Virus record (IMG/VR): IMGVR_UViG_3300043568_000455
Span: 1-26,604 of that record
DNA: 26,604 nucleotides
From: a virus
Reading direction: 5' to 3' (one strand)
The notes beneath the pieces were generated by a model. It searched no databases, was not told the DNA's origin, and saw only the letters and a program-made list of their open reading frames with translations. The translations under genes and the position numbers were made by a program. Shown here piece after piece: positions 9,333 to 19,534 of the stretch (position 1 is its first letter; the number at the start of each line of letters is the position of its first letter).

Positions 9333-9361
9333 GGCTCAACCCTTCGGGGTTGGGCCTTTCT
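9333..9361 (+). terminator. Strong rho-independent terminator with C(UUCG)G loop
   Basis: GGCTCAACCC (9333-9342), loop TTCG, GGGTTGGGCC (9347-9356), 10 pairs with one wobble, then TTTCTGTTT. The C(UUCG)G tetraloop is the especially stable form. It lies 19 bases after the tail tube stop and should confine tube mRNA, keeping it from the chaperone and tape measure genes. Confidence 0.92.
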
Positions 9362-9364
9362 GTT

Positions 9365-9373
9365 TGGTATACT
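9365..9373 (+). promoter_or_regulatory. Extended -10 promoter (TGG-TATACT), leaderless type
   Basis: TGGTATACT directly downstream of the terminator stem. The hexamer ends at 9373 and the A of the ATG is at 9380, exactly the +1 distance, so the mRNA should begin with AUG. Twelve bases (TGGTATACTTAT) are identical to the promoter at 916. Confidence 0.55.
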
Positions 9374-9379
9374 TATATA

Positions 9380-10057
9380 ATGGCAACAAAAATATATCAA
9401 AGCAAAAAGGTATCATTAATAGATGATAGAGTTATTACTATATCACCGTTAAAGATAAAATATCTTAGAGAGTTTCTAGAAATTTTTGAAACTATCAAAG
9501 AAGCAAAAACAGATGATGAGTCAATTGCTGTTTTGGCTTTATGCGCTCTTGTTGCAATGCAGCAATACTGCCCATCTATAAAAACAATAGATGACCTAGA
9601 AGATAGTATTGACTTGCCAACAATATATGAAGTAATTGATATTGCAGCGGGAATTAAAATTAATGAAAAGTCAGAAGATACAGTTAAGAATCAGGCAGTA
9701 GAAAGCGGATCAACCTGGGATACACTAGACTTGGCAAAACTTGAGTCTGAAGTGTTTTTACTGGGCATATGGAAAGACTATGACGAACTAGAATCCTCAC
9801 TGTCAATGCAGGAACTTACAGCAACACTTACAATAAAAAGAGAGTTAGATTATTCTGATAAGAAATTTTCTGCTGCTATGCAAGGAGTAGATTTAGACAA
9901 AAACTCTGGCAAGGGCAATGAGTGGGAAGACATGAAAGCAAGAGTGTTTAGCAAGGGTGCTGCAAAAGATGGAAATGACATACTTGCTTTACAGGGAGCC
10001 AATGCCGAAAGGGCTGGTTTTGGTATAGGCATGGGCCTTGACTACGAAAGTTATTAA
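9380..10057 (+). CDS. Tail assembly chaperone, long form (G-T-like)
   Basis: 225 residues in two parts. Residues 1-95 (VSLIDDRVITISPLKIKYLREF... to 'DLPTIYEVIDIAAGIKI') are paralogous to the whole of the next short gene. Residues about 110-225 are an extension with 'WDTLDLAKLESEVFLLGIWKDYDELESSLSMQELTATL' and a 'DYSDKKFSAAMQGVD' segment, the layout of the T part of the G-T chaperones that load the tube protein on the tape measure. In most siphoviruses the long form arises from a -1 frameshift in the short gene; here it is one continuous frame. There is no ribosome site; ATG 9380 is chosen because the promoter places the transcript 5' end on it (leaderless). An ATG at 9350 lies inside the terminator and is rejected. 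Confidence 0.85.
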   Translation: MATKIYQSKKVSLIDDRVITISPLKIKYLREFLEIFETIKEAKTDDESIAVLALCALVAMQQYCPSIKTIDDLEDSIDLPTIYEVIDIAAGIKINEKSEDTVKNQAVESGSTWDTLDLAKLESEVFLLGIWKDYDELESSLSMQELTATLTIKRELDYSDKKFSAAMQGVDLDKNSGKGNEWEDMKARVFSKGAAKDGNDILALQGANAERAGFGIGMGLDYESY

Positions 10058-10079: not shown

Positions 10080-10088
10080 TGGTATAAT
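10080..10088 (+). promoter_or_regulatory. Extended -10 promoter (TGG-TATAAT) before the short chaperone and tape measure unit
   Basis: TGGTATAAT, with no -35 consensus. The predicted transcription start is near 10095, leaving a leader of about 20 bases that carries AAGGAGGA (10103-10110) 4 bases before the ATG at 10115. It would drive the short chaperone, tape measure and the tail-tip genes. Confidence 0.55.
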
Positions 10089-10114
10089 TGATTAAACCTT
10101 ATAAGGAGGAACAA

Positions 10115-10438
10115 ATGGCAACTGCCACTGAAGAAAAAACAGTAACACTAATTGACGGAACAAAAGTCAAAGTGCGTCCACTCAAGATCTCACTACTTCG
10201 TCCATTTATGAAGAAGTTTGAAGATATTGCTAAGGTCGCAGAGGACAACGAAAAGTCTATGGATCTTCTCATGGACTGTGTACAAATAGCAATGCAACAA
10301 TACAAGCCAGAATTGGCAGAAGACAAGGAAGCCCTAGAAGAAAATCTAGACCTTCCAACAGTATACAAGATTGTCGAAGAGGCATCAGGAATTAAACTTT
10401 CTGACGCATCACTTCTCGGCAGCCTTGCAAATAACTAA
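10115..10438 (+). CDS. Tail assembly chaperone, short form (G-like), paralogue of the gene before it
   Basis: 107 residues. It aligns end to end with residues 1-95 of the long chaperone: 'VTLIDGTKVKVRPLKI' against 'VSLIDDRVITISPLKI', 'IAMQQYKPEL' against 'VAMQQYCPSI', and 'NLDLPTVYKIVEEASGIKL' against 'SIDLPTIYEVIDIAAGIKI'. It stops right after the shared domain, as the G product does in lambda. AAGGAGGA with good spacing decides the start and predicts strong translation; the TTG at 10088 is inside the promoter and is rejected. I find no X-XXY-YYZ slippery heptamer in frame near its end, and the downstream frames carry no T-like extension. It directly precedes the tape measure gene. Confidence 0.85.
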   Translation: MATATEEKTVTLIDGTKVKVRPLKISLLRPFMKKFEDIAKVAEDNEKSMDLLMDCVQIAMQQYKPELAEDKEALEENLDLPTVYKIVEEASGIKLSDASLLGSLANN

Positions 10439-10456: not shown

Positions 10457-13400
10457 ATGGCTGATGTTCAATCCAATATTCATGTAAATATTGATACGTC
10501 TGATGCTTTAGCAAGTCTAAAACTTCTGCAACGTCAAATATCAGCCTTCCATACACAAATGGCAAAGTCTGGTACCGCAGCAGCAGCGGTATCGGCAAAT
10601 CAAGCACAAAACTTGATGAACGCAATAAATGCTACTGGACAATTCCAAGCATCTATGCGACAGGTAACAACTAGTACAGAGCACTTTACCGAATCCTTAG
10701 AGCGTAATAAGTTAACATCTAGAGAATATTTTAGATATACTGGCGCAGCAACAAAAACTTTTGGTAGATTGTTTAAGTCTGAATTTGAAACATTAAACAA
10801 AGTTGCACGAGAGCGTGTAAAAGATATACAGACTCAGTACATTAAAATGGGCCGTGGAGCCAATGGGGCTCTACAGTCAATTGCTGTAAGGCCTTTAACT
10901 TTAGATATGAAGAACCTGGGCACACAAACTGCTATAGCAGCCCAGAGACAACAACTTTTAAATCAACTATTAAAGCAGGGATCAACAAACCTCCTAAACT
11001 TTGGTAAGAATACTCAGTGGGCTGGTCGTCAGTTGATGGTTGGTTTTACAGTTCCTCTAGCAATGCTTGGAACAACCGCTTCAAAAACCTTCATGAAACT
11101 TGAAGAGCAGGCAATTAGATTTAAGCGTGTGTATGGAGAACTCTTTACAACACAAGAAGAAACTGAGCAAATGGTTAAGCAGATTCAACTGCTTGCAAAA
11201 GAATATACTAAGTATGGCGTAGCCGTAGAAGATACGATGAAGATGGCTGCAGATGCAGCAGCAATGGGTAAGATGGGTGCAGACTTAACTGCACAGGTTG
11301 CACAAGCAACTCGTCTTGCAGTTCTTGGTGGTGTAGAGCAAACACAAGCACTTGAAACAACAATCTCAGTAACAAATGCATTCGGTGTAGCCACAGAAGA
11401 TCTAGCAAAGAAGATTGACTTTCTTAACGCAGTTGAAAACCAAACCGTTGTATCAATTGAAGATTTAACAATAGCAATGCCAAAGGCTGGACCAGTTGTT
11501 CAGCAGTTGGGCGGAGATGTTGAAGACCTAGCATTCTTCCTAACAGCAATGAAGGAAGGTGGAATTAACGCATCAGAAGGCGCTAACGCACTCAAGTCTG
11601 GTCTTGCATCTTTAATTAATCCATCTGAAAAAGCATCAAAGATGCTTATGGGTCTTGGCGTAAATATAAAAGGTATTGTAGAGGCAAACAAAGGAGATGT
11701 TAAGTCAACAGTAATAGACTTTGCAGCAGCACTAGATACTTTAGATCCACTTAACCGTGCTCGTGCAATTGAACAACTATTTGGTAAATTCCAGTTCTCA
11801 AGACTTTCAACTTTATTTCAAAACGTAATAGGTGAGGGAACACAGGCAGCGAGAGTTCTAAAACTTACAAATGCTACAACAGAAGAGTTAGCAATTTTAT
11901 CTGAACGAGAATTAAGCAGAATCCAAAACACAACAACTTACAAATTTAAAAAATCAATGGAGGACTTAAAGGTTGCAATCGCTCCTGTTGGAGAGCAATT
12001 CCTTAAGGCTTTAACTCCAATCGTTGAGTTTGTTGGAAAAATACTTGATAAGTTTAACAACCTAGGGGATGGTAGCAAAAAGTTTTTAACTATCCTTACT
12101 GTTGCAGTTGCAGGTATAGGACCAATTCTTCTTATGACATTTGGTTTGCTTGCAAACGCTGTTGCCAATATAATTAAACTATTTGCAGGAATGAAGTCTA
12201 TGTATAACAGAACTGGCAGCGCCAGCAAGGTTCTTGGAGATCAGACAAACTATTTAACTAAGGAACAGATAGAAGCATCTGCAGTTGCAGCATCACTAGA
12301 TCAGGTTCATCAAAAACTTAAACAAACATTTACATCTGAAGCGTCAGCAGTAAATATGTTAGCAAATGCATATAGAAGAGCAATTGCAGCACAAGCAGGA
12401 TTTACTGGGCCAGTTAGGGGCGGAGGAAAAGCACCTGGACTAAAAAGATATTCAACAGGAACTAGAAAAGTTCCAGGATCAGGAAATCAAGATACAGTTC
12501 CAGCAATGCTTACACCTGGTGAAGCGGTTATTCCAGCACAGGCTGCACAGGACCCAGCAAACAGACCAGTAATTGCAAGAATGATTGCAGGACAAACTGT
12601 TCAAGGATTTAACGAGGGAACTACTGGTGTAAAATATCAAAAGACACACGTAGGTGGAAAGAGTGATCAAAAAAATATATCAGACATTATTAAGCATAGT
12701 CCATTTATGTCTGATGATCAAAAGTCTAAACTAAGAGCACTCGAAGCAATTCTAGTATCACAAGGATTGCCTCCAACAACCGCAACCTTGCACAAACTAA
12801 TGTTTAACTTCCCAGAACACTTAAACATGTCAATGAAATCGGCAGCAGGAGTTTCTCCTCAAAGTTTTATAGATGCTTGGGAAAAGATGGGTCCAGGAAA
12901 ATGGTCAGCCTCAAACCTTAGTGCAACCATGGCCGATCCGCTTGATCGAGCAATATTGGAAATAATCAAGCAAGATCTTAAAGATGGAAAAATAAAGGGT
13001 ATAAGCGACGACTATATAAGTAAAGTTTTTACAGAAAGAATACCAGCAGAGCGCCCAGAGGTTGCTAAAACAGCAGGGTATAGAGAAGCGCAAAAACTAT
13101 ATCAGGCATCAACACAGTTCCTTTTAGGAAAAGGACTAGGAAATACTCCTGCAGAAAGCGAAAGAATTCTAAAAGAGGCAGTAGAAAAGGGCTTTATAAA
13201 AGACTTTAGCATTGAAACAAGAGAGGGAACTGGTAAAACTAATAAGGGCAAGGTAGTAACTGGCTCAGCCACAGTAACATTAAATGACGGAACTGTTGTA
13301 AACATGAACAGACTTGGCAGTGGACATAGAGTTAATATAAGCCAAGATGAAGAAAGCAAGGCAAAGAGCAATGCTGCAGTTGAAAGAGCAAGAGCAAAGT

Positions 13401-16400
13401 CAATAGCACAAAAGGCTGCAGATGTACCAAGCCAGGCAAAGATACAGGTTTTAAAAGATGTCTCAGATGCTGCAGCAAAAACTGCATCTGGAAAGTTGGA
13501 TCCTACAGATTTTGGAAAGCAGATTTCTCCATCTTCTGGATATAGTTTTAAAGAAGCATCCTTTATGGGTGGACTGTACAAGAAGCCAGATGGCAGTAGA
13601 GTTTTTGTAAAGCCAATGATGGATGAAAGAGCAGCCCTAGCAGAAATGAGAGCAACACAAATTGCTCGTGATGTTCATGGACTTAATGCACCAGACCAAA
13701 GAATAGCAACAATGCTAGACCCAACGGACCCAAGCAAGCAAAGAAAGTTAATTGTGCTAGAGTCTCCATACAACGCTGCTTTCGATCCTTCTAAAATTAG
13801 TAAAAGTTTTACGCCAGAGGAATACTTCAGGCAGTTAGTAGCAGCAAACCTTAGAGTAGACAAAGATCTTAAGCCAGGAAACCTTGGAGGCAATGTACTT
13901 ACAGATGTTGGTGCAGCAGGTGTATTTGATAGTGCATCTGGAAAGAGAGACTTTGTAAAGAATCTTCCTTCAATGGAAGAAATGGCAAAGGTAAACCTAA
14001 GCGGAGTTCCAGGAAAGCAAGCAGGCAATTCACCACGATGGTTTAGCAATGCAACTGCAGATATTGCACGAAGCATGACTTCTCAACAATATCATAATGC
14101 AATGATTGCTGAAATTGACAGAGTTCTTCCTAGACTAGAAAAGACTCTTGCAACCATGGATCTTACTCCTGAAGAAAAACCATACTATCAAGCAATGGTT
14201 GACAGACTTAGAGAAGGAAAAAAGGTTGATTGGAAAAAACTACACAAACTTCATACATCTATTTTAGTTAAGCCAGACGAAGTTGTTGAAGATCCAAAAA
14301 CTAAAAAAACAAAAAAGCCAAAGACAACCAGCAAGCCTGCTGGAGTTAAGTCATCTACTGGTAGTCCAAAAGATACGAGACTTGCACCAGCCTCTTTAGC
14401 ACCAAGTATTCGTCAAAAGCCTACAGTGTTACGTGGAAAGTCTGACGCACCACAAATTGATATTTCAGAACAAGAACTTGCTCGTACGGCACCAAGGGGA
14501 ATAAAAAGGCTTTCAGATCCAGCAGAAGCAATTGTAAGTGGAGCAAAGTCTACCGTTGCAGAAGCAAAAGCAGTTGGATCACAAATTGGAACAAACATAA
14601 CTCAGTCGGTAGCAGCAGCATCAAGAACAATGCTTTACGGTACTGGACCTATAGATGCAAATGCAAAATCAGTGCGTCGCAGATTACAAAAAGAAGCAAC
14701 TCCTAAATTTCAAAGAGAGAAAGCGCTAAAAGAGTCACAAGCAAAAGCAGCAGCATCAAGAACTGCTCTCTATGGAACTGGGCCAATAGATGCAGACGCT
14801 AAATCTTTACGTAGACAGATGGAAAAAAGAAGTAGGATAGCGGAAAAAATAGCATATCAAGAAAGAATCATTAGTCAAAAAGCCGCAGCAGCAGCAATGG
14901 CACAAGCCCCTATGCTTGGACCACGCAAGCCAACCATGTATGATAAAACAGTAGGAACCGCTGCTGCAAAAGTTAGAACTAGTAAGGTTGCTGAAAACTT
15001 TAGAGGACTTAAGGCTTCAGAAAGTAAGATAGGATACTTGCGTCAAAAGTCAGCAGATAGATCAGCAGCAGGTAAGGGACCAGGAATGGGAATGGCTGGA
15101 GCCATGGGTGTTGCTTCTGGCGTAGCAATGATTGGCTCAATGGCCCCAGGCAAGGTTGGAGAAATTTCACAGAAGATAATGATGCCACTCATGGGTATGG
15201 CAATGATTATGCCAATGCTTCAAAATAAGTTTTCAGCACTTGCAGTAGGTGTTGGTCTTGTTGTAGCAGCATATGCATATCAAAGAATGGTATTTGATAA
15301 AGCACAAGATGCAGCCCTAGAACTTACAGATGCCATGGGATCTGGAACAAGAGCAATAAAAGCACTTTCTGAGTTTTCAACAAAAGTTGGCGCTGGAGAG
15401 ATTATGGACAGAAGAAGAAAAGATTCATTCTCTCCTTTCCAAACTAAAACAGGAAAAACCACATTTGGTGAGGCTTACATGGCGGGAGAAGGCGGAAAAG
15501 CCATGGCAAAAAATGTTACACAAACTATTAAAATGGGCGGTGAAAACGGAAAGTCTATGGCATCAGGTCAGGTTGCTGATCAACTTATGACAGCAGTTGT
15601 ATCGGGAGTTCTAGACCCAGCCCAAGCAAGATCAATTGCAGCAAACCTTGGAGAGCAACTTGGAGATCAGTCTTTTGGAATTGAAATAAATTCAAAACTT
15701 ATTTCAATGCTTGGTCCAAACGGAGAAAATATTCTTAAAGATGGGGTAGAACTTGAAGTAAAACTTCTACAAGACACAAGAACTAGAATGAATCTTGCTT
15801 CTACAGCAGCAAGAGACGCTGGAGGATGGACTGGAAAAGATGTTGGAAAGACTGCTGGATATAGCATTGGAGCGGGACTTGCAGGAGCAGGAGCGGGAGC
15901 AATTGCAGGAGGACTACTAGCAGGAGGTGCTGCTGCAGGAGCAACAGGTCTAGCCACTGCAGCAGGAGCAACCGCTTTGGGAGCAGCAGCAACAGGTGCA
16001 GCAGTAGGTTCTGCCGTTCCAGTTGTAGGAACAATAATTGGCGCAGCACTAGGGATTGGTGTTGGAGCATTCTTAGCAAGAAAAGACAGAAACAAGAGAA
16101 TTGGTGAAGCATCTGGTGCATCTATTGCTATGCAGAAAATCGCTCTGCAGCAACAAAAAGAATTAAATGATTCTGTAGAATTAAGATATCAGAAAGAACT
16201 TGAAATAGCAAAAGCAAAAGGCGACCAGGTTGAAATGCAGAGATTGTCAGATCAGTATGATGAAGATAAGATTGCATTGCTCACTGAAAATGCAGCACTC
16301 GTTGCTGACATTCAAAAAAGTTATGCCGATGCCGAAGGGGCAACACAGAACGCATTAATGACAGGAGCAGATAAAGCAATCACAAAACAATATGCGGGAA

Positions 16401-19400
16401 CTCCTCTAGAAGATGTGGCTGTATTAGCAAAATCAAATATTGATAGTTCTGCTGTTTCAAAAGAAATGCAGTATACACTAAAAATGCAAATGGCAAGTGG
16501 ACAGATAGACCCAATGCAAATGCTTCAAATATTTGAAACCTTCGGCGATAACGCTGGAGCGATGACGCAAGTTGTTTCTATTATTGGTAAGTTTGGTGGA
16601 GACTTTGCTAACCAGATGATGGTAGTTGCTGGTATGTTTGAAGATAAAGAACAGGCAGCAACCTTTATTGCTAACATAGAAGCAAAAGGTCCAAAAGAAG
16701 CACAGGAGCAACTTGAACTATTTCAAAGAATTTCTCAATCTGCATTAGTTGTAAATAAAGATGTTCTACTAAATTATTACAATTCAAATCCAGATGCAGC
16801 CAAAGAAATTCAAGACTCTTTAGCAGCAATTGATGCTATTAAGGGAAAGGCTACTATTGATATTGTAGCAAAAACAGAAGTTTTTGGTGCTGAAGAAATG
16901 GCATTGCTAAAAGCAGATCAGGAATACTTTGACAGTTTACCAGCAGAACAGCAAAAGGTTTATCTGCAAAACATGAAGGTAATGATGACAATGGAGGGCG
17001 ACCCAGCAATGCAACTAGCCTATAAAAATTGGCTAGAAGAAAAGGGTGGTGCAAATGCTGGAAAGAGTTTCCAAGATTATGTTATTGCTAAGACTCAGCA
17101 AAAAACAGAGGCTTCTGGGGCTGAGCCTGCAGCACCAGTAGGTGGCGGTGTACAAGGCGGGGGAAATAAAGTACAATCTTCACCACTAGACGATCTAGTA
17201 AAGAAACTAAGAGATGTACGAAAGAACCAGATAAAGGTCACAGAAGGCTGGAGTGCCTCTCGTAAGGCTCTTGAAGGCCTATTTGGCGGTAGCAAGACCA
17301 TAGATGTATTCAGCGGTATAGAAAACGATCTAAGAGGGCTAGGAGGCTCTCAAGACTTTATTGAGATGATTGTTGGTATGGATCCAAAGGAATACGAAAA
17401 GAGAAAGAAATCTCTATTTGAGTTTGACAATAAAGGAAATATTATTGCACTAAAGAGAGATGCTAAAAATATTCAAGAAGCATTAAACTCAATAACCATG
17501 GGAGATTGGAACTCAAGCATGGAGGCAGAGTTAAAGGATATTTCTAATCAAACAGTTGCCTTTGAAAAATTATCTAAACTTGGTGTACCAGTTGCTAACG
17601 CCTATGACATTATCACTGACAAAACTATTGCAGCAGCAATTGCTAATGGAGCAAATGAAAAAACATTAAAGACTTTGATTGCTAGATATAAAGGTTTGAC
17701 TGCAGCACAAGAAAAGGCTAAAGCCATTTCAGGAGTTAAAACAGATATTGATCAGTTTAAAAAAGACAGAGTACAAGAAGATAGAATAAGAAATAAGTAT
17801 AGTTCATCAACTGCTTTTGCAATTGGGTCTGACGAAAACCTTAAGGCAATGGAAGCCGTTATCGCTGCTCAAGAAGCAAGAGTACAAAGTTTAATTGCAA
17901 AGGGTGCAGATAGAGCACAGATTATGGCTGCACAAGCCGAACTCAATAAGTTGGTAACTGATTTTAATGATAGACTAAATCAACTAAAGAACACTATTGG
18001 TTTTATGCAGGACATGTTTAATGATGGATTTAGTAATGCTATGGAGGCCTTTGATGTTCAAGAAACAGCACTTCAGATAAAGTTTAATCTAGATACAAAA
18101 GCAAGTCAAACAATTATAAAAGAAGCACAAGATGTTATTGCTGGAATTCAATACCAGATTGATGATAAAGAAGCAGCACTGAGGGCAATTGAAGATCAAG
18201 AGTCAAAGATTAATGATAAGTACGATGAAAGAATAGAGGCTTTAGACTCAATCGAAAAAGCAAACGCCTCAATCTCTCAGCAACAAAGAGGACAGTTAAC
18301 TCTTGCAGAAGCATTAACCTCTGGAGATATTGCTGCAGCAGCAAGGGCTGCTCAAGATATGAGAGCACAGCAGGCTGCAGATGCTGTAACAAAACAAAAA
18401 GAAGCAGTTGAAAATTCTAGACAGTTTGAACTTTCTAATGTTAGGGCATATGATCCAGTAACTAAAACATACAGGACTAGGAAAGAACTTGAAGAAGATA
18501 TTAAAAAACTACAGAATGAGATCTTTGATATAGAAGAAAAAAAGATTGAGCCAGCGCAAGAGTTTATTCGTTTAAGACAGATACAGTTAGACAAAGATAT
18601 TGAAGGCCTAACCGTACTTGGAAAAACAAGAAGTGCTTGGGAAGCCATTAAAAATGAAATAGATCTTGCCATGATAAATAGCAAAAAGTTTATAGAGTCA
18701 ATGCAACTTGCTCTTAACACTAAAAATGATTTGATCAATGCTTACAAAAATCAACAAGCAAGTGGCAACGATCCAATCGTAAATGCTGCATACACCCCTG
18801 GACCCCCAGTTCCTGGAGAAACTCCAGAACAGAAAGCAGCAAGAGAAGCAGCAGAAAAAGCAGCAGCCGAAGCAGCAGCAAAGGCTGCAGCAGAAGCAGC
18901 AGCAAAAGCAGCAGCAGATGCAGCAAAAAATGCAGCATCAAAGTCTGCATTAGGTGCCTATGCAGCAGCAGTTGCAAAGGGTGATATGAATGCAGCAGCA
19001 ATCGCTGCAGCAGGAGTAAACCCAAGTGCTCTTGCAGCACAAGAAAGCGGAGCGATTGGAGCAGCATCCATTGCAGCACAATTAAAGGCAGCAGTAGTTG
19101 CATCAGAGGCTGCAGCAGCCATAGCAAAAAATGCTAACACACTTGCTAACTTTAAAGCAAAAGAAAATGCAGAAAATGCAGCAGCGATGGCATCAGCAAA
19201 TGCTAAGGGTCATGTAGGAAGAGCAAAGGGCGGAATAATCCCTAAGATGTTTTCACTTGGTGGTTTTGCAAAGGGCACAGATACAGTGCCAGCCATGCTA
19301 ACTCCAGGAGAATTTATTATGAGTAAGTATGCTGTAGATTCTTACGGGGTAGACAGCATGAGAAAGATTAATAATGGCGAGGCATTTGGTGGAGCAGTGT

Positions 19401-19534
19401 ATAATAATACATATGCACTAACAGTTAATGCCAAGACAGATGCTAATCCAAATGAAATAGCAAGAGCAGTCATGGATACAATTAAGAGAGTCGACGATAG
19501 AAGAGTCAGGGGGGTGAATGTAAATGGTAGATGA
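10457..19534 (+). CDS. Tail tape measure protein with embedded accessory domains (3025 residues)
   Basis: Tape measure proteins set tail length and travel into the cell at injection; at about 0.15 nm per residue this one predicts a tail of roughly 450 nm. Residues about 185-515 are the conserved tail tape measure core (TVPLAMLGTTASKTFMKLEE..., 'LGGDVEDLAFFLTAMKEGGINASEGANALKSGL', 'ERELSRIQNTTTYKFKKSMEDL'), then a membrane-like stretch at 546-580. A 'DTVPAMLTPGE' motif at 679 is repeated at 2942. Between them: an unfamiliar region (about 735-1020), a kinase-like domain (about 1025-1275), a Lys-rich linker, two 45-residue repeats (1386-1475), hydrophobic stretches at about 1540-1610 and a Gly/Ala-rich one at about 1795-1875, coiled coils at about 2510-2770, and an Ala-rich segment near 2790-2830. 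RBS AGAGGTG decides the start. The end overlaps the next gene by 11 bases. Confidence 0.95.
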   Translation: MADVQSNIHVNIDTSDALASLKLLQRQISAFHTQMAKSGTAAAAVSANQAQNLMNAINATGQFQASMRQVTTSTEHFTESLERNKLTSREYFRYTGAATKTFGRLFKSEFETLNKVARERVKDIQTQYIKMGRGANGALQSIAVRPLTLDMKNLGTQTAIAAQRQQLLNQLLKQGSTNLLNFGKNTQWAGRQLMVGFTVPLAMLGTTASKTFMKLEEQAIRFKRVYGELFTTQEETEQMVKQIQLLAKEYTKYGVAVEDTMKMAADAAAMGKMGADLTAQVAQATRLAVLGGVEQTQALETTISVTNAFGVATEDLAKKIDFLNAVENQTVVSIEDLTIAMPKAGPVVQQLGGDVEDLAFFLTAMKEGGINASEGANALKSGLASLINPSEKASKMLMGLGVNIKGIVEANKGDVKSTVIDFAAALDTLDPLNRARAIEQLFGKFQFSRLSTLFQNVIGEGTQAARVLKLTNATTEELAILSERELSRIQNTTTYKFKKSMEDLKVAIAPVGEQFLKALTPIVEFVGKILDKFNNLGDGSKKFLTILTVAVAGIGPILLMTFGLLANAVANIIKLFAGMKSMYNRTGSASKVLGDQTNYLTKEQIEASAVAASLDQVHQKLKQTFTSEASAVNMLANAYRRAIAAQAGFTGPVRGGGKAPGLKRYSTGTRKVPGSGNQDTVPAMLTPGEAVIPAQAAQDPANRPVIARMIAGQTVQGFNEGTTGVKYQKTHVGGKSDQKNISDIIKHSPFMSDDQKSKLRALEAILVSQGLPPTTATLHKLMFNFPEHLNMSMKSAAGVSPQSFIDAWEKMGPGKWSASNLSATMADPLDRAILEIIKQDLKDGKIKGISDDYISKVFTERIPAERPEVAKTAGYREAQKLYQASTQFLLGKGLGNTPAESERILKEAVEKGFIKDFSIETREGTGKTNKGKVVTGSATVTLNDGTVVNMNRLGSGHRVNISQDEESKAKSNAAVERARAKSIAQKAADVPSQAKIQVLKDVSDAAAKTASGKLDPTDFGKQISPSSGYSFKEASFMGGLYKKPDGSRVFVKPMMDERAALAEMRATQIARDVHGLNAPDQRIATMLDPTDPSKQRKLIVLESPYNAAFDPSKISKSFTPEEYFRQLVAANLRVDKDLKPGNLGGNVLTDVGAAGVFDSASGKRDFVKNLPSMEEMAKVNLSGVPGKQAGNSPRWFSNATADIARSMTSQQYHNAMIAEIDRVLPRLEKTLATMDLTPEEKPYYQAMVDRLREGKKVDWKKLHKLHTSILVKPDEVVEDPKTKKTKKPKTTSKPAGVKSSTGSPKDTRLAPASLAPSIRQKPTVLRGKSDAPQIDISEQELARTAPRGIKRLSDPAEAIVSGAKSTVAEAKAVGSQIGTNITQSVAAASRTMLYGTGPIDANAKSVRRRLQKEATPKFQREKALKESQAKAAASRTALYGTGPIDADAKSLRRQMEKRSRIAEKIAYQERIISQKAAAAAMAQAPMLGPRKPTMYDKTVGTAAAKVRTSKVAENFRGLKASESKIGYLRQKSADRSAAGKGPGMGMAGAMGVASGVAMIGSMAPGKVGEISQKIMMPLMGMAMIMPMLQNKFSALAVGVGLVVAAYAYQRMVFDKAQDAALELTDAMGSGTRAIKALSEFSTKVGAGEIMDRRRKDSFSPFQTKTGKTTFGEAYMAGEGGKAMAKNVTQTIKMGGENGKSMASGQVADQLMTAVVSGVLDPAQARSIAANLGEQLGDQSFGIEINSKLISMLGPNGENILKDGVELEVKLLQDTRTRMNLASTAARDAGGWTGKDVGKTAGYSIGAGLAGAGAGAIAGGLLAGGAAAGATGLATAAGATALGAAATGAAVGSAVPVVGTIIGAALGIGVGAFLARKDRNKRIGEASGASIAMQKIALQQQKELNDSVELRYQKELEIAKAKGDQVEMQRLSDQYDEDKIALLTENAALVADIQKSYADAEGATQNALMTGADKAITKQYAGTPLEDVAVLAKSNIDSSAVSKEMQYTLKMQMASGQIDPMQMLQIFETFGDNAGAMTQVVSIIGKFGGDFANQMMVVAGMFEDKEQAATFIANIEAKGPKEAQEQLELFQRISQSALVVNKDVLLNYYNSNPDAAKEIQDSLAAIDAIKGKATIDIVAKTEVFGAEEMALLKADQEYFDSLPAEQQKVYLQNMKVMMTMEGDPAMQLAYKNWLEEKGGANAGKSFQDYVIAKTQQKTEASGAEPAAPVGGGVQGGGNKVQSSPLDDLVKKLRDVRKNQIKVTEGWSASRKALEGLFGGSKTIDVFSGIENDLRGLGGSQDFIEMIVGMDPKEYEKRKKSLFEFDNKGNIIALKRDAKNIQEALNSITMGDWNSSMEAELKDISNQTVAFEKLSKLGVPVANAYDIITDKTIAAAIANGANEKTLKTLIARYKGLTAAQEKAKAISGVKTDIDQFKKDRVQEDRIRNKYSSSTAFAIGSDENLKAMEAVIAAQEARVQSLIAKGADRAQIMAAQAELNKLVTDFNDRLNQLKNTIGFMQDMFNDGFSNAMEAFDVQETALQIKFNLDTKASQTIIKEAQDVIAGIQYQIDDKEAALRAIEDQESKINDKYDERIEALDSIEKANASISQQQRGQLTLAEALTSGDIAAAARAAQDMRAQQAADAVTKQKEAVENSRQFELSNVRAYDPVTKTYRTRKELEEDIKKLQNEIFDIEEKKIEPAQEFIRLRQIQLDKDIEGLTVLGKTRSAWEAIKNEIDLAMINSKKFIESMQLALNTKNDLINAYKNQQASGNDPIVNAAYTPGPPVPGETPEQKAAREAAEKAAAEAAAKAAAEAAAKAAADAAKNAASKSALGAYAAAVAKGDMNAAAIAAAGVNPSALAAQESGAIGAASIAAQLKAAVVASEAAAAIAKNANTLANFKAKENAENAAAMASANAKGHVGRAKGGIIPKMFSLGGFAKGTDTVPAMLTPGEFIMSKYAVDSYGVDSMRKINNGEAFGGAVYNNTYALTVNAKTDANPNEIARAVMDTIKRVDDRRVRGVNVNGR
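12491..12535 (+). repeat. First 'DTVPAMLTPGE' motif of the tape measure protein
   Basis: Encodes DTVPAMLTPGEAVIP at residues 679-693, followed by 'NRPVIARMIAGQTVQGF'. The same 11-residue core recurs at 19280-19324 near the C-terminus. The motif is common in phage tape measure proteins and its role is unknown to me. Here the two copies bracket the inserted accessory domains. Confidence 0.8.
14612..14881 (+). repeat. Tandem 45-residue repeat in the tape measure protein
   Basis: Units at 14612-14746 and 14747-14881 begin AAASRTMLYGTGPIDANAKS and AAASRTALYGTGPIDADAKS. The first 25 residues are nearly identical; the rest are charged helix that has diverged. A degenerate third start (AAAAAMAQAPMLGP) follows. 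They sit in the linker between the kinase-like domain and the first glycine-rich hydrophobic region. Confidence 0.8.
18828..18945 (+). repeat. GCA-rich low-complexity run encoding an alanine-rich helix
   Basis: Imperfect repeats of GCAGCAGAA and GCAGCAAAA encode runs such as AAEAAAKAAAEAAAKAAADAA near residues 2790-2830. This is a single alpha-helix or coiled-coil type spacer after the coiled-coil part of the tape measure protein, and a likely site of length change by slippage. Confidence 0.75.
19280..19324 (+). repeat. Second 'DTVPAMLTPGE' motif of the tape measure protein
   Basis: Encodes DTVPAMLTPGEFIMS at residues 2942-2956 in the usual C-terminal context (GGFAKGT before, 'KYAVDSYGVDSMRKINNG' after). 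It matches the copy at 12491 in 11 consecutive residues but with different codons, so the two are old or separately acquired. Confidence 0.8.

Follow-up and report, generated by a model that had tools for sequence, protein, structure and literature searches.

The virus record studied here, hereafter the window (the whole stretch of 26,604 bases that was analysed), carries head and tail genes on its plus strand, and the tail length tape measure protein (TMP) encoded there contains, in the middle of its chain, a domain with a predicted two-lobed kinase fold. Judged by the model, the presence of a kinase fold within the TMP is close to certain, and the earlier note on this DNA, which had read a kinase-like domain from the letters, is supported in substance. 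Because the domain is under selection, looks catalytic, is optional, is exchanged and lies within a TMP, cargo acting on the host is its most likely role. Our best explanation, to which we give a probability of about 0.5, is an atypical kinase, capable of catalysis and broadly of the CotH, HipA or PI3/4-kinase type, which forms an exchangeable module of the TMP and would be delivered with the DNA and phosphorylate a host target.

The tape measure gene and its phages

The long gene is assigned to the TMPs by its profile matches (Table 1) and its tail gene context. Upstream of it lie a portal gene, a prohead protease gene and a sub-threshold match to a tail tube protein, and the gene order is the same as in Streptomyces phage Coruscant and other Streptomyces phages of the Stanwilliamsviridae. 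Two genes ahead of the TMP gene (9350-10057 and 10088-10438) resemble each other on visual comparison, each having an LP-T-Y-E-like stretch, sit at the tail assembly chaperone position of the Coruscant-type order, and are possibly a duplicated tail assembly chaperone. The kinase domain has hydrophobic stretches of the TMP on both its sides, at residues 541-577 and at 1595-1613 and 1804-1875.

Table 1. Features of the tape measure gene in the window
Feature	TMP residues	Nucleotides	Strand	Basis
Tail length tape measure protein		10457..19534	+	3025 aa; PF10145 E 3.2e-23, phrog_10030 E 1.5e-99
Hydrophobic stretch	541-577	12077..12187	+	Hydropathy
Separate upstream domain	about 730-970	12644..13366	+	Modelled, 10-residue pLDDT means 69-94
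Variable slot (approximate)	740-1350	12674..14506	+	Shorter sequence there in close relatives
Kinase-fold domain as modelled	1004-1290	13466..14326	+	pLDDT 92.5, pTM 0.88; Z 11.9 to CotH
Presumed phosphate-loop region	Gly1028 and Ser1030	13538..13546	+	119/119 each; putative role
Presumed ATP-anchoring Lys	Lys1052	13610..13612	+	119/119; modelled strand 1048-1054
Presumed partner of Lys1052	Glu1063	13643..13645	+	119/119; modelled helix 1057-1074
Hinge-like position	Glu1102	13760..13762	+	118/119; modelled strand 1097-1104
Catalytic-loop-like stretch	Asp1135, Asp1137, Asn1142	13859..13882	+	119/119 each
Presumed metal site (DFG-like)	Asp1150-Val-Gly1152	13904..13912	+	Asp1150 119/119, Gly1152 82/82
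Hydrophobic stretch	1595-1613	15239..15295	+	Hydropathy
Hydrophobic stretches	1804-1822 and 1843-1875	15866..16081	+	Hydropathy

The closest isolated relatives of this TMP are those of the same Stanwilliamsviridae phages, with N-termini 28-32% identical to the window's (best 40 of 603 records), and their portal is about 46% identical (best 10 of 341 records). Three of their TMPs were examined, however, and these are 2099-2133 amino acids (aa) long, against 3025 aa here, and have no kinase domain. WhiB, which is not known outside actinobacteria and the phages that infect them, is encoded in 10 of 24 large domain-carrying records chosen from the loci described below and, among 14 control genomes, in that of Corynebacterium glutamicum only. 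WhiB and the kinship with Streptomyces phages point to actinobacterial hosts for the group, so the kinase-bearing TMPs come from uncultured, probably actinobacterial, phages, and an actinobacterial host may be presumed for the window itself.

Predicted fold and active site

The kinase-like region had been placed at nucleotides 13520-14290, which correspond to TMP residues 1022-1278, and the peptides quoted from it (six pieces checked) and all eight numbered residues lie exactly at the TMP positions given for them. A model made by AlphaFold2 with an 82-row alignment predicts the two-lobed fold with high confidence at residues about 1010-1270 (pLDDT 92.5, pTM 0.88). The same fold came out at about 1010-1261 in another, longer model, which spans residues 701-1292 (22 rows, pLDDT 79.9, pTM 0.50) and has a Z of 12.1 to CotH. 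When the Foldseek top 1000 were aligned to the first model by VIA-align 2, the best match was CotH of Bacillus cereus (PDB 5jda, 5jd9; Z 11.9, rmsd 4.2, 220 residues, 8-10% identity), and further matches were CtkA (11.0), MavQ (10.2), PI4KIIalpha (10.1), LepB (9.5), HipA (9.5), Vps34 (9.2) and Fam20C (9.2); all 50 matches listed, at Z 8.1-11.9, belong by title or known function to the kinases or kinase-like proteins. The tool's own guide gives a best Z of 7-8 as typical for models without a clear match, and the Z near 12 of this model is meaningful, yet not overwhelming. Foldseek against the PDB gave no match at E <= 0.001 (best CtkA, E 2.2e-3, TM-score 0.37; TM-scores below 0.4), and all 50 matches listed were kinases by title. 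The fold search had been named beforehand as a test on which the claim might fail, and the confident fold that it found is kinase-like.

In a viral fold library four proteins of 955-1340 aa passed E 0.001 (E 1.5e-5 to 3.0e-4, 15-18% identity), of which two are annotated as ADP-ribosyltransferases, one as a portal and one is uncharacterised, and their models may reflect a distant kinship with kinase-like domains of other large phage proteins. These best viral fold matches, giant phage fusion proteins such as the ADP-ribosyltransferase of Mycobacterium phage Onyinye, are not annotated as TMPs.

Conservation and modelled order together give what is expected of a kinase active site, that is, a lysine on the N-lobe sheet with a helix glutamate, and a D-x4-N pattern with a second metal aspartate. 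Lys1052 and Glu1063, both marked by the earlier note, are invariant in the 119 distinct domains described below, and the hinge-like Glu1102 is present in 118 of them. The claimed catalytic loop holds for Asp1135, Asp1137 and Asn1142 (119/119 each) and fails for Asn1146, which varies (77/119). The proposed metal-site residue, Asp1158, has to be given up, being Asp in 36/119 only, whereas the previously unmarked Asp1150 is invariant. In the model, Asn1142 and Asp1150 are separated by two short paired strands (1143-44, 1147-48); the corresponding strand pair between the loop asparagine and the metal aspartate is longer in typical kinases. Because of this modelled order and the conservation, D1137-x4-N1142 is read as the catalytic loop and D1150-x-G as the metal site, and most likely the metal-site aspartate is Asp1150, not Asp1158, and the loop asparagine Asn1142, not Asn1146. 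After the catalytic loop the model has the helical C-lobe that had been proposed (helices 1173-1180, 1187-1191, 1195-1205, 1209-1233, 1241-1254 and 1259-1267). In addition, residues 1004-1290 include 78 D/E/K/N positions, of which ten show conservation in 97% or more of the 82 representatives. The agreement of the motifs exceeds chance, since six of these ten are among the eight residues singled out beforehand (hypergeometric P = 2e-5).

The earlier alternatives of a kinase-fold enzyme or a dead relative can thus be narrowed: the predicted kinase fold stands, and the dead relative is disfavoured by the residue invariance. From the residue pattern and the model, the domain is likely an active enzyme. 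Its Lys, catalytic Asp and metal residues are presumably as in the HipA/CtkA class of toxin-type kinases, to which its fold is alike, although here the domain is part of a TMP and has no HipA match in Pfam. In HipA, Ser150 is an autophosphorylation switch, and a similar switch at Ser1030, near the presumed phosphate loop, is a speculation from this analogy.

Of the searches that had been proposed, the fold comparison thus gave kinases, whereas the sequence and profile searches of Pfam and the PDB named none. For the window's domain, Pfam gave no family up to E 10, and so no HipA, PF00454 or CotH match, NCBIfam and PADLOC gave no match, and PHROGs and PDB sequences gave matches at chance level only (phrog_9389, E 0.35; two PDB chains, E 1.3 and 1.9). 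A PDB search with the 82-row alignment had a lectin as its best match (E 0.018) and also aligned 80 residues with a 'Protein kinase C' chain at E 0.54; neither match was given weight. For the 82 members, Pfam gave 44 families, each in at most 5/82, with PF00454 absent among the 25 families listed, and PHROGs gave a best E of 0.002, to a function-unknown family in 5/82 members. By tblastn against 50,697 phage records, the window's domain had a single match at E 5 and member L124 had none; a match of member L092 at E 1, to a tape measure gene in Thermobifida phage P318, was taken as chance. A plasmid search found no relative of the domain, and motif scans of 84,980 species genomes gave 381 pattern matches and no domain relative; such scans overlook remote relatives, so that these results do not establish that cells and isolated phages lack the domain.

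The TMP N-terminus has one relative in the species genomes, without kinase and at 36% identity, on a 110-kb contig (L361) that is binned as a cyanobacterium and is possibly a phage contig within that bin. Gene 16 of the haloarchaeal virus HSTV-2 (L362, 10647-12119), which has head genes on one side and tail genes on the other, codes for a protein of 490 aa with a sub-threshold PF00454 match, perhaps another virion-linked kinase-type protein; profile comparison of the kinase domain with it gave a probability of 0.4%, which is not significant. The alignment from this comparison pairs Asn1146-Val-Leu-Thr-Asp1150 with NILMD, which by itself would favour Asn1146 as the loop asparagine, and was rejected because Asn1146 varies.

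Conservation and mosaic tape measure proteins

Relatives were fetched from IMG/VR by motif-guided scans (up to 344 relative-encoding stretches in one scan, at most 80 retained per scan). The resulting set has 218 sequences, namely the window and 217 loci, some of them on the same contig, all with the domain, and all 162 complete open reading frames among them also match the TMP N-terminal region. There are 119 distinct domains, with 82 representatives below 90% identity. Invariant in all 119 are Gly1028, Ser1030, Gly1039, Lys1052, Glu1063, Gln1126, Arg1133, Asp1135, Asp1137, Asn1142 and Asp1150, and Gly1152 is present in 82/82 representatives; the fetch motifs contain Lys1052, Glu1063, Asp1150 and Gly1152, so that the conservation of these four is inflated.

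Because of this inflation, a control sample was drawn by motifs of the TMP N-terminus alone. It consists of 137 rows, partly from the same contigs as the first set, of which 35 carry the kinase as recognised by profile at E <= 1e-3. Lys1052 and Glu1063 are present in all of its 31 distinct domains, and Asp1135, Asp1137, Asn1142 and Asp1150 in 30/30 with letters there (the copy of L286 is cut short), while Glu1102 is found in 28/30 with letters, Asn1146 in 22 and Asp1158 in 12 of the 30-31 distinct domains. The catalytic set is unchanged even in domains about 40% identical to the window's. The other outcome named beforehand as telling against a kinase, homologues that vary freely at these Lys, Glu, Asp and Asn residues, is not what the survey shows. 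The dN/dS ratio has a median of 0.14 and a maximum of 0.54 in 1164 locus pairs of 70-98.5% identity, which are not independent of one another. The domain is held by purifying selection, and its residue set looks catalytic. Two loci, L235 and L286, have a TMP frame that ends within the kinase domain, and L108 has its TMP N-terminus and its kinase in separate frames; these breaks are either sequencing errors or real.

The domain lies in a variable slot of the TMP. The kinase-less L237 and L239 are 85% identical to the window's TMP over the first 650 residues; the BLAST match with them stops at residues 736 and 695 and resumes at 1354 and 1353, respectively, and between these flanks they have about 320 and 295 residues against about 620 in the window; at E <= 1e-4, BLAST matches no part of their slot contents to those of the window. 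In L241 and L243 the match continues to residue 840, and therefore the left edge of the slot differs among TMPs. The TMP has two copies of a VPAMLTPGE motif, at residues about 677-695, just before the slot, and about 2937-2955, near the C-terminus; its copy at the left edge of the slot is common to kinase-less TMPs too. The control sample, drawn by N-terminal motif, includes 103 distinct complete TMPs, and the kinase is found in 28 of these. By N-terminal identity to the window, whose own row is excluded, it is present in 1/2 at 50-60%, 14/77 at 60-70%, 0/9 at 70-80%, 9/11 at 80-90% and 4/4 at 90-100%. Among 36 rows including the window, 14 have the start of the kinase near residue 738-783, 20 have it near 984-1053 and 2 near 1934.

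Furthermore, the identities of kinase and N-terminus are decoupled. L067 is 96% identical to the window over the N-terminus, 42% over the upstream domain, 56% over the kinase, and 77% and 87% over the flanks 1354-1480 and 1600-1780. When all pairs of 123 distinct TMPs are compared, N-terminal identity is 90% or more in 413 pairs, and 219 of these pairs have a kinase identity below 65%; in some other pairs an N-terminal identity of about 36% goes with a kinase identity of about 66%. The best account of these sequence patterns would be recombinational exchange. Of 15 kinase-bearing TMPs compared with the window, 12 have an identity of only 36-41% over the segment 1600-1780. The whole TMP is therefore subject to recombination or rapid change, and the mosaicism is not special to the kinase.

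As to other contents of the slot, Pfam on 54 of 61 non-redundant slot regions of kinase-less TMPs gave two glycine-zipper families, SHOCT and DUF3482, and no enzyme; the seven regions left out, mostly contig-cut or short, are those of L255, L259, L268, L272, L317, L329 and L340. The upstream domain is predicted to be alpha/beta, has conserved HVG and W-x-x-x-G-x-x-KW patterns, and is common to part of the kinase-bearing TMPs and some kinase-less ones; in the fold search with the longer model the matches were taken up by the kinase part, not by this domain.

Possible functions and relation to known systems

In the proposed mechanism ATP would be bound between the lobes, held by Lys1052-Glu1063 and by the loop with Gly1028, Ser1030 and Gly1039, and the metal would be held by Asn1142 and Asp1150, with Asp1137 (or Asp1135) as the catalytic aspartate. 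At DNA ejection the domain would exit the tail along with the TMP, fold or refold at or inside the cell and, early in infection, phosphorylate a host target. Action as a host effector is the leading function, at roughly even odds.

That the motifs resemble a kinase by chance, without any kinase fold, is very improbable: the sequence libraries name no kinase and the Foldseek E-values against the PDB are weak, but the model is of high confidence, its Z is near 12 against the typical 7-8, and the motif residues are the conserved ones. Somewhat less improbable, though still doubtful, is a pseudokinase or structural filler that binds a partner or takes up tape-measure length. Kinase activity is predicted only, and the slots of other TMPs hold no recognisable enzyme; a non-catalytic scaffold, however, would not need a catalytic set that is invariant down to about 40% identity.

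The two remaining alternatives are unlikely but weigh more. An active kinase may work within the producing cell, phosphorylating the TMP, chaperones, tail tube or baseplate proteins and so timing assembly, with no host effector. In favour of this, the domain lies within a structural protein, and its closest fold, CotH, is a kinase of structural proteins, being a separate spore coat enzyme which phosphorylates spore coat proteins; CotH is, however, a stand-alone enzyme and the present domain, which has no CotH match in Pfam, is a module of a tail protein. Moreover, the domain is optional among otherwise similar TMPs (28/103; L237 and L239), which a required assembly step would preclude unless the domain were replaced. 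The fold could also serve another chemistry, as in SelO, which transfers AMP, and SidJ, which glutamylates, or act on small molecules or lipids. Neither the substrate nor the chemistry can be read from the fold by itself, and beside protein kinases the closest folds include the lipid kinases PI4KII, Vps34 and Legionella MavQ, with which the domain shares the fold without a PF00454 match; against this stands the invariant D-x4-N and D-x-G pattern of ordinary phosphotransfer.

The preferred reading, a kinase carried to the host by the TMP, has partial precedents. Passages of Iyer et al. 2017 (PMC5512222) describe polyvalent proteins, large multi-domain proteins with kinase-type domains that are proposed to be packaged and injected by phages, mainly those of Verrucomicrobia-Chlamydia and Bacteroidetes, and cite the T7 kinase as a precedent for kinases in injected phage proteins; 'tape measure' is absent from the main text of that paper. 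The kinases of polyvalent proteins are said there to lack the whole C-terminal subdomain, whereas the TMP kinase model has a helical C-lobe. According to PMC13277306, TMPs are ejected and inserted into the membrane, TMPs with wall-cutting motifs are known (from a reference within it), and actinobacterial contractile injection systems pack and eject TMP-related effectors with diverse functional domains. Such Sle1-type effectors are like the TMP kinase in being TMP-related, in having an exchangeable functional domain and in belonging to a tail-like particle; they differ in that they are not phage TMPs and their functional domain is C-terminal, and 'kinase' is absent from the text of PMC13277306.

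The earlier note knew of no TMP of this type, and the open-access literature, mostly titles and abstracts, plus passages of PMC8876498 and PMC7824862, gave no kinase within a TMP either; in PMC8876498 the TMP gene is distinct from the ORF that is named as a kinase. Literature on CotH and PI3/4 kinases in phages gave nothing of use. Injected enzymes in phage heads and in polyvalent proteins are already known or proposed, and injected phage enzymes and modular TMPs are both known ideas; for their combination as seen here no description was found.

More generally, and more tentatively, the TMPs of a sizeable group of uncultured actinophages may have a cargo slot between two conserved flanks that takes exchangeable modules, one of which would be an active first-contact kinase acting on a host protein or lipid. 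If this is true, the tail ruler itself would be an injected signalling enzyme, which might for example stall growth or blunt defence. If the kinase is active, the TMP would be an exchangeable delivery arm, and phosphorylation would be among the first acts of the phage on its host, ahead of any phage gene being read.
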